Source: Acidobacteriota bacterium (lineage in GTDB: Bacteria; Acidobacteriota; Thermoanaerobaculia; Gp7-AA8; JAHWKK01). Taken from it: a DNA stretch of 64,000 nt. The stretch spans positions 124,001-188,000 of the forward strand of contig JAHWKK010000004.1 of NCBI GenBank assembly GCA_019347945.1, written 5' to 3'. Under the pieces are notes generated by a model. That model saw only the letters and a list, made by a program, of their open reading frames with translations, did no database searches and was not told the origin of the DNA. Both the position numbers and the translations under genes were made by a program. Below are positions 14,525 to 17,328 of this stretch, one piece after another; position 1 is the stretch's first letter, and each line of letters opens with the position of its first letter.

Positions 14525-15649
14525 TCAGCTTATTTTCATCGGCATGATGACGTAGAGGTACTCGTAAGCGAGCTCATCCTCTCCCATCGGCCGGGCGATG
14601 CACTGCGACTCTTCGTCGCGCAGATCGAGCACGACCTTTTCGGTATCGGTCGCCGCGAGGAAATCGGAAACGTAGGTCGCATTGAGGCCGATCCTGAAGT
14701 CGGGTCCGGAGTACTCGATCGGTACGGTTTCATGGGCATCGCCGAGATCGGAGCTCATCGACGAAACGGTGAGCTGACCCTTCTCGAACTCGAGCTTCAG
14801 CGCGCGCATTCGCTCGGTCGATACGAGCGAGATCCGGCGTATCGTGCCGAGCAGCCGCTCGCGATCCACCGTCACGCGCTTGTCGTTGTCGCGGGAGATC
14901 ACGTCGTTGTAATTCGGAAAGTTCACATCGATCAGCCGGGCGAGAATTCTTCGCGATCCGGTCTCGAAAAAAATGTGGCTTTCGGCGAGACCCACCTTCA
15001 CCATCTCCTCGCCCGTTGATTCGATCTTCGCAATCTCCTGCAAGGCCTTTCTCGGGATCAGGATCTTCAGCGGCGAATCCGATGCTGCCTCGAGTCCCTC
15101 CTGCGGGTAGGTGATCAGCGCCATCCGGTGCCCGTCGGTCGCAACCATTTCCATGTCGGAGCCGTTGAGCTTGAGGAGCGCTCCGTTGAGCTGAAAGCGA
15201 GTTTCCTCGTGTGTGATCGCGAAGATCACCTTCTCGATCATGGTCTTGAGGTCGTCGAACCTCACCTCGAACGTTCGCGACGCGTCGACCTCCGGTATGG
15301 CGGGAAAGTCTTCTGCCGCCCGGCCGAGCAGACGGAAGACCGCGGACCCGCTCTGGAGCTGAATCGAATCGTTGTCGCCGAGCTTGATCCGCACCTCATC
15401 GTCGGGCAGCGCGCGAACGATGTCGAAAAGACGTTTTGCCTCGATCGTGATCGCGCCGTCTTCCTTGATCTTCGCAGGACACGAAGCCTCGATGGTGACA
15501 TCGAGATCCGTGGCGGTCAGATCGATGCGATCGCCATTCGCCCGAAGGAGAACATTCGACAGCACCGGTATGGTCGATCGCCTCTCGACGACCGCCTGGC
15601 ACAACTGCAACTCTCTCTGAAGATCGGTTCGGTTGACGACCAACTCCAT
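14525..15649 (-). CDS. dnaN: DNA polymerase III beta sliding clamp
   Basis: 374 residues, usual length. The three-domain clamp is recognisable from MELVVNRTDLQRELQLCQAV, the FRLLGRAAEDFPAIPEV stretch and the C-terminal YLYVIMPMKI segment that forms part of the protein-binding pocket. It follows dnaA after 285 bases that hold the proposed origin element, and it leads directly into recF. Confidence 0.97.
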   Translation of the reverse strand: MELVVNRTDLQRELQLCQAVVERRSTIPVLSNVLLRANGDRIDLTATDLDVTIEASCPAKIKEDGAITIEAKRLFDIVRALPDDEVRIKLGDNDSIQLQSGSAVFRLLGRAAEDFPAIPEVDASRTFEVRFDDLKTMIEKVIFAITHEETRFQLNGALLKLNGSDMEMVATDGHRMALITYPQEGLEAASDSPLKILIPRKALQEIAKIESTGEEMVKVGLAESHIFFETGSRRILARLIDVNFPNYNDVISRDNDKRVTVDRERLLGTIRRISLVSTERMRALKLEFEKGQLTVSSMSSDLGDAHETVPIEYSGPDFRIGLNATYVSDFLAATDTEKVVLDLRDEESQCIARPMGEDELAYEYLYVIMPMKIS

Positions 15650-15934
15650 TGCTCGCGAAGCTCCTTTGCTACGGTCTGGAAAGACTTTTATTTCTCTTTA
15701 GTAGTAGTAGTAACAGGCCCTGTGGAAACCGCGGAGGGCCGCCGTAAGTGACGGCGAGTATAGCAGTAGAAGACGATCCCGCCTGTGAGGAAGCGGCGGA
15801 TAACCCGGCGGTGTACGAGCCGACATTTCCACATGCGAACCCCTTCTCCGAAGCTCCCGTTCGCTTTTCCGCGAACCGTCCGCAGAGCTTTCCGGTCGTA
15901 TTCCGAAGCCGTTGCGGAAAAAGGCTCGTTCCAC
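15650..15934. other. oriC: Candidate oriC in the dnaA-dnaN intergenic region
   Basis: A non-coding stretch between dnaN and dnaA. It has an AT-rich run (about 15680-15713) that ends in four TAG and one TAA trinucleotides, a GC-rich spacer, and a DnaA-box-like 9-mer at 15721-15729. A second near-match, ATTTCCACA, lies at 15825-15833. This order matches the basal unwinding system described for bacterial origins (Richardson and co-workers). The flanking dnaA-dnaN-recF-gyrB and rpmH-to-parB arms independently point to an origin here. Confidence 0.72.
15699..15729 (+). promoter_or_regulatory. DnaA-trio plus DnaA box (basal unwinding element)
   Basis: TAG occurs four times and then TAA (15699-15713). 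Read 3' to 5' away from the box this is AAT-GAT-GAT-GAT-GAT. A seven-base GC-rich spacer (15714-15720) and TGTGGAAAC (15721-15729) follow. The reverse complement of the last is GTTTCCACA, one mismatch from TTWTNCACA. Confidence 0.68.
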
Positions 15935-17260
15935 TCATCGGAAGTGCCTCGTGAGCATGTCGACAGTCGATTCAACGGAGGGATCCTCGGACTTGAGCCG
16001 CTCGATTTTTTCGACCGAGTAGATGACGGTCGAATGGTGCTTGTTTCCGAAGAGCTTTCCGACCTCCGGGTAGGAAAGATCGGTCAGTTGCTTGCACAGA
16101 TACATCGCAACCTGGCGGGGATAGGCGATCGGCCTCGCATTCGATTTGGACTTGAGATCCGAGACTTTCAGGCCGTAATGAGAGGCGACGACCTTGATGA
16201 TCTCAGCCGGGGTGATCGGCTTGTTTTCCTTGGCGAGAATGTCCCGTAGCGCTTCTTTGGTGAGGTCGAGGTCGATCGGATGCCCGGTGAGAGAGGCGAA
16301 GGCGGCGATTCTGTTCAGATGACCCTCGAGCTCGCGCACGTTGGACCGGACGCGCTCGGCCACGAAGAGGGCGACCTGCTGTGGCATCGGGATTCCCCGC
16401 TCCTCCGCCTTTTTCCTCAGAATGGCGACTTTGGTCTCCAGGTCGGGCGGCTGGATGTCGGCGATCAGTCCCCATTCGAATCGTGAGCGGAGGCGGTCCT
16501 CGAGGTTCGGCATCTCCCGGGGTGGGGCATCGGAGGTGAAGACGATCTGCTTCTGGTTCTCGTACAGAGCGTTGAAGGTGTGGAAGAACTCCTGCTGCGT
16601 CCGCTCCTTTCCAGCGAGAAACTGGATGTCGTCGAGGAGGAGTGCGTCGACCGAGCGGTAACGTTCCCGGAACGAGGCCATTCGGTCGTAGCGGATCGAG
16701 CTGATCAGATCGGTCACGAAGTTGTCGGCCGACATGTAGACGACGCGGTTGTCCGGCCTGTCGGCGAGGATACGATGACCGATGGCCTGGATCAGATGAG
16801 TTTTTCCGAGCCCCGCTCCCCCGTAAATGAAGAGGGGGTTGAACGATCCGCTCGGATTCTCTGCGATCGAAACGGATGCCGCGTAGGCGAGCTGGTTCGA
16901 CCCGCCGACCACGAACTTGTCGAATGTATATCGCGGATTGAAAACCGGCTGGGGCGGAGCGGCTTTGGACGATCGCGGAGACGACTCCAAGTCGCCGGTT
17001 GCCGATTTGAACCGATCGGAAGGGGCGGCGTCGGCGACGAAATGGACGCGGGTCGTTTCGGAATTGAGATCGAGGAGTATCTCGCGGATCTGGGGGCCCC
17101 AACGCTGGGAAATCTGATCGACGAAGCGGGTGTCTGGAACTCTGACGTCGACGGTATCCGCGTGCTCGCCAAGGAATTCAGTCGGCTCGAACCACTTGTC
17201 GAAGTCGTCTTCAGTCAGTTCTTCGCGAAGGCGCTCGAGAACTTGACTCCATACGTTCAT
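15935..17260 (-). CDS. dnaA: Chromosomal replication initiator DnaA
   Basis: 441 residues. Domain I starts MNVWSQVLERL, a variable linker follows, then the AAA+ domain with Walker A GGAGLGKTHLIQAIGH and Walker B ALLLDDIQFLAG, and the C-terminal DNA-binding helix-turn-helix with LFGNKHHSTVIYSVEKI. The frame is open upstream, but the ATG at 17260 gives the usual N-terminus. A cluster of DnaA-box-like sites lies 38-68 bases upstream, consistent with autoregulation. Divergent from rpmH. Confidence 0.97.
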   Translation of the reverse strand: MNVWSQVLERLREELTEDDFDKWFEPTEFLGEHADTVDVRVPDTRFVDQISQRWGPQIREILLDLNSETTRVHFVADAAPSDRFKSATGDLESSPRSSKAAPPQPVFNPRYTFDKFVVGGSNQLAYAASVSIAENPSGSFNPLFIYGGAGLGKTHLIQAIGHRILADRPDNRVVYMSADNFVTDLISSIRYDRMASFRERYRSVDALLLDDIQFLAGKERTQQEFFHTFNALYENQKQIVFTSDAPPREMPNLEDRLRSRFEWGLIADIQPPDLETKVAILRKKAEERGIPMPQQVALFVAERVRSNVRELEGHLNRIAAFASLTGHPIDLDLTKEALRDILAKENKPITPAEIIKVVASHYGLKVSDLKSKSNARPIAYPRQVAMYLCKQLTDLSYPEVGKLFGNKHHSTVIYSVEKIERLKSEDPSVESTVDMLTRHFR

Positions 17261-17297: not shown

Positions 17298-17328
17298 TAT
17301 TCCACAGTTTTTCCACATTTGTGGAAAA
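17298..17328. promoter_or_regulatory. Cluster of three DnaA-box-like sites upstream of dnaA
   Basis: TATTCCACA (17298-17306), TTTTCCACA (17309-17317) and the inverted TGTGGAAAA (17320-17328). The last two match TTWTNCACA exactly and form an inverted pair; the first differs at one position. The location suggests DnaA autoregulation or a second origin-associated binding cluster. Confidence 0.75.

Follow-up and report, generated by a model that had tools for sequence, protein, structure and literature searches.

A highly probable replication origin with a predicted basal unwinding system in the dnaA-dnaN gap of an uncultured acidobacterium

The window, a 64-kb stretch of DNA, lies on a 201-kb contig of an Acidobacteriota draft assembly of 3.72 Mb in 49 contigs. 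It carries the only full-length dnaA match in the whole genome, and the nearest named relatives of the encoded DnaA are found in Acidobacteriota metagenome-assembled genomes. The gene order gyrB-recF-dnaN-dnaA, proposed in a first-pass annotation of the letters alone, is borne out by NCBIfam models, which extend it to gyrA-gyrB-recF-dnaN-dnaA, with all five genes on the minus strand. To the right of dnaA, on the plus strand, NCBIfam models identify yidC and mnmE as well as the parA and parB genes of the earlier proposal; rpmH, named for the same flank, was read from the sequence only. The features of the locus are as follows.

14525..15649, minus strand: dnaN, DNA polymerase III subunit beta (NCBIfam TIGR00663, 304 bits)
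15650..15934, 285 bp: dnaA-dnaN gap, predicted oriC unwinding region, with trios and with DnaA-boxes packed more tightly than anywhere else on the 201-kb contig
15679..15713: 35-mer with the lowest nearest-neighbour stability in the 64-kb window, covering trios 2-6 and the AT-rich tract towards dnaN
15699..15716, plus strand: six in-phase DnaA-trios, 5'-TAGTAGTAGTAGTAACAG-3', read from the box as 3'-GAC AAT GAT GAT GAT GAT-5'
15717..15720, minus strand: four-base GC spacer GGGC (GGCC or GGCA in many Blastocatellia)
15721..15729, minus strand: trio-proximal DnaA-box GTTTCCACA, from the sequence and aligned in 16 order relatives
15757..15765, minus strand: TGCTATACT, an extended -10-like element and probable promoter of dnaN, in 17 of 17 aligned order gaps (once as TGATATACT)
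15795..15803, minus strand: DnaA-box-like TTATCCGCC (one-mismatch box scan)
15825..15833, plus strand: DnaA-box ATTTCCACA (box scans)
15865..15873, plus strand: DnaA-box-like TTTTCCGCG (one-mismatch box scan)
15913..15921, minus strand: DnaA-box TTTTCCGCA (box scans)
15935..17260, minus strand: dnaA, 441 amino acids from the ATG at 17260 (NCBIfam TIGR00362, 552 bits)
17298..17328: three DnaA-boxes upstream of dnaA, without trios, at 17298 (plus), 17309 (plus) and 17320 (minus) (box scans)

In the orientation of dnaA, the gap runs from the dnaA stop through several boxes, TGCTATACT, GTTTCCACA, GGGC, CTG TTA CTA CTA CTA CTA and AAGAGAAATAAAAG to the dnaN start. Direct reading confirms the tract TAG-TAG-TAG-TAG-TAA and the box on the opposite strand: TAG occupies 15699-15701, 15702-15704, 15705-15707 and 15708-15710, followed by TAA (15711-15713), CAGGCCC (15714-15720) and the plus-strand TGTGGAAAC (15721-15729), which is GTTTCCACA on the minus strand. 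The polarity ascribed to this tract also holds, as the TAG-repeat DNA beside the box runs in the same direction as the DnaA-trios of Bacillus subtilis. The box has one mismatch to TTTTCCACA and two to TTATCCACA, within the two mismatches allowed for a DnaA-box.

The seven GC-rich bases first described as the spacer are present. However, relatives suggest a better reading, since many Blastocatellia have GGCC or GGCA as the spacer and CTG is in phase with the following triplets. A four-base GGGC spacer is then followed by six in-phase trios starting at CTG, and the seven-base spacer would therefore include the first trio. The site passes the rules of the prediction program of PMC8287927, which call for a box with at most two mismatches, a spacer of at most 16 bp and at least three NAN trios. 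Between the box and the first trio there are 4 bp (7 if CTG is not counted), and the six consecutive trios, where at least three are required, have the central adenine and the right polarity, four of them being the consensus 3'-GAT-5'. Adjoining the proximal box at 15730-15738 is CCCTCCGCG, a possible weak second box, which by direct reading has five mismatches to TTATCCACA. An inverted repeat, CGCCGTcacttACGGCG, was noticed by eye at 15739-15757, where in the dnaA orientation it closely follows the -10-like element.

Several properties distinguish this gap from the DNA around it. The 14-base trio core TAGTAGTAGTAGTA occurs once in the 3.72-Mb genome, in the dnaA-dnaN gap, and the 35-mer at 15679-15713 has the lowest nearest-neighbour stability of the 63,966 in the window (z = 4.9). 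When one mismatch to TTWTCCRCA is allowed, five boxes lie in the 285 bp, where the density over the contig, 0.48 per kb, would predict about 0.14; they form the cluster beside dnaA that is looked for in a bacterial oriC. The gap contains the densest 300 bp for DnaA-boxes on the 201-kb contig, and the second densest lies upstream of dnaA. Exact TTWTCCRCA has three copies on this contig, all between dnaN and rpmH, while TTATCCACA was not found anywhere on it. The best box-spacer-trio score of the gap is 14.1, a value reached by 0 of 100 dinucleotide shuffles; this is an optimistic estimate, since the score was weighted towards CTA after the window had been seen, and the p values of relatives are less affected.

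Conservation of the gap was followed in 17 genomes of the order (that of the window and 16 relatives; aligned loci L014-L030) and in about 85 other loci, nearly all of them acidobacterial. In the order alignment, a TTTTCCGCA-type box is followed, after a short spacer, by six triplets that share one phase. The first position of triplets 1-6 is C in 15, 15, 16, 14, 17 and 17 of the 17 sequences and the central position is T in 13, 17, 14, 7, 10 and 10, with the pattern stopping at triplet seven. The distal trios of the order thus hold G better than the central A. In trios 4-6 guanine is kept and the central adenine often lost, unlike the published motif, in which the central A is the fixed base (PMC8287927). 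The box-spacer-trio score has a shuffle p of 0.01 or less in 14 of the 16 relatives; in the other two, L023 and L024, it is not clearly above the shuffles.

Among the other loci, Blastocatellia often have TTTTCCACATTTCCACAGGCMCTACTACTACTACTA, a pair of boxes, four spacer bases and five copies of CTA, and clear tandem boxes are present in other Acidobacteriota; trios are degenerate in Vicinamibacteria, Terriglobia and one large family of the window's class. A spaced pattern of box plus CTACTACTA matched in 17 of 297 phylum genomes, adjoining dnaA in 12 of these 17. A reversed control pattern also matched scattered genomes in this search, so that position beside dnaA, and not the raw number of matches, is informative. 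In a further sample of the phylum, CTACTACTA-type runs were found in about half of the gaps. Within the order, box and trios are thus conserved in a single polarity, and they are found again in much of the phylum; a lack of conservation in close relatives, one of the two refuting outcomes named at first, was not seen. The description of the trio tract as unusually regular is true within the order but not across the phylum, where 11 other loci have five CTA/TTA in a row.

GC skew, on which the other refuting outcome turned, agrees with the origin reading as far as the local contig allows. Over the full 201 kb it is mostly negative to the left of the locus and mostly positive to the right, changing sign across the gyrA-to-dnaA block. 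The cumulative minimum is shallow and lies at 4.1 kb of the window, about 11 kb from the gap, within a flat stretch from 1 to 15 kb; third-codon-position skew on the contig did not locate an origin. In a class relative with a one-contig genome (G050), skew was taken from 20 sampled stretches; it is mostly negative up to dnaA, at 2.727 Mb, and mostly positive beyond, with a sharp change of sign within the 20 kb that include the gene. Skew thus favours the locus, although for the genome of the window, a 49-contig draft, this support is coarse.

The window DnaA was compared with the B. subtilis protein (8btg), in which N187, I190, I193, R202 and E228 hold or flank trio bases and R264 serves as the arginine finger that oligomer formation requires (PMC10721633). 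I190, I193, R202, E228 and R264 are kept and Thr stands at N187, giving T, I, I, R, E, R at the trio-capture and oligomer positions; the base-contact residues are not universally conserved (PMC10721633). Both E228 and R264 are invariant across 146 loci. The box-reading helix of the window DnaA, residues 407-412, is KHHSTV, with His-His at E. coli positions 433-434. His replaces the Asp of B. subtilis in 145 of the 146 DnaA loci, the sole exception being a locus titled as a Bdellovibrio genome (L110). The Asp-His dyad has been called highly conserved (PMC5043019), and among the papers searched none on the base contacts of Asp433 was found. His-His may be a mark of the phylum and may be connected with the TTTTCCRCA form of the box.

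The gap also holds a promoter-like element that may serve the expression of dnaN. In the order, TGCTATACT is its most conserved element, lying 98-116 nt upstream of dnaN, and extended -10 elements in the dnaN direction were found in 26 of 102 gaps against 2.7 expected, with none in the reverse direction. A sigma-70 scan, which needs a -35 hexamer, did not report TGCTATACT, so it is conservation that argues for this element as the probable dnaN promoter. In addition, boxes lie upstream of dnaA as well, and the conserved elements could then serve mainly dnaN, with TGCTATACT as promoter, the box and repeats as a DnaA-responsive 5' leader, and opening upstream of dnaA. Yet no trio run was seen upstream of dnaA in the 17 order members, and for this reason a main opening site there was rejected; the trio-free box cluster is probably a second binding site or a dnaA autoregulatory site. 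Nor does a leader role explain why the triplets keep one phase, why the stability of the duplex is low or why the trios start next to the box, and a dnaN promoter and an origin can share one place. An explanation by dnaN expression is therefore considered very improbable.

A different alternative takes the repeat for a trinucleotide microsatellite, or for some other chance feature of a leader region, with no role in replication. Slippage can create trinucleotide repeats, and the run in the window is more regular than those in other members of the order. Against this stand the single occurrence of the core in the genome, the phase, polarity and post-box position shared in the order and recurring across the phylum, and the concentration of exact-pattern matches beside dnaA. 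On conservation and uniqueness this origin of the repeat was rejected, and it is scarcely credible.

The boxes upstream of dnaA are 11 bp apart and lie downstream of a -10-like TGTGCTAGACT, an arrangement similar in relatives. Several Acidobacteriota of other classes have a -10 similar to TGCTATACT that lies directly within the trio tract or immediately behind it. At L078, L081, L083 and L092, whose DnaA proteins are 46-48% identical to that of the window, a TTATTACTGTTATAAT-like sequence follows the box, and the trio tract and -10 element thus appear to overlap.

The preferred reading, that the dnaA-dnaN gap is the oriC of an uncultured acidobacterium with a predicted basal unwinding system, is held with high confidence, and the skew change and the conservation of box and trios support the candidate origin with DnaA-trios put forward at first. 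It is founded on what was observed: the anatomy and low stability of the gap, the uniqueness of the trio core, the conservation of box and trios, the skew and the DnaA residues. By analogy with B. subtilis, we infer that DnaA binds here and forms a growing oligomer, that the duplex is unwound and that helicase is loaded. DnaA would occupy the cluster of TTTTCCRCA-type boxes, and a DnaA-ATP oligomer would grow from the box at 15721-15729, cross the GGGC spacer and continue on the plus strand. With one subunit per trinucleotide over the six trios, the plus strand would be stretched, and the weak duplex at 15679-15716 would open towards dnaN for helicase loading.

It can be further proposed that Acidobacteriota carry a lineage-specific version of the system, in which a DnaA with His for the base-contacting Asp433 (E. 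coli numbering) reads a shifted TTTTCCRCA box. In the order of the window, the distal trios would be constrained at guanine instead of the central adenine, and a conserved dnaN promoter beside or inside the trios would be coupled to opening. As a joint claim this is tentative and rather unlikely. The change in box and helix and the relaxed distal central adenine would nevertheless probe how general the B. subtilis model is. Sequence conservation extends the box and trio architecture to an uncultured order and much of the Acidobacteriota, and the locus supplies exact origin coordinates and a ready strand-separation test. Among the papers searched, none names both the DnaA-trio and Acidobacteriota. 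Basal unwinding systems have been predicted in 1755 of 2070 bacterial species; Acidobacteria are not mentioned in the main text of that study, and its supplements may already list acidobacterial examples (PMC8287927).

As the site is built like the strand-opening site of B. subtilis, it is a new example of a known device and not a new kind. In B. subtilis, the basal unwinding system is incC of oriC, comprising DnaA-boxes 6/7 and the DnaA-trios (PMC6669920; PMC8287927; PMC10721633); its activity is known, whereas that of the window site is predicted from sequence. Unlike incC, the window has one clear trio-proximal box and not two, a tandem second box being the commonest arrangement and not an obligatory one, and it has a promoter-like element between the distal and proximal boxes. 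The box takes the form TTTTCCRCA in the window and TTATCCACA in B. subtilis, and the DnaA recognition helices are KHHSTV and RDHTTV, respectively. In both organisms, the site lies between dnaA and dnaN, with a box, a short spacer and trios of polarity 3'-(G/A)A(T/C)-5' towards dnaN, a duplex of low stability, further boxes nearer dnaA, and a DnaA carrying the ISM residues and the arginine finger. The number of trios is also the same, with six in the window and six held by seven subunits in the cryo-EM structure of the B. subtilis complex (PMC10721633).
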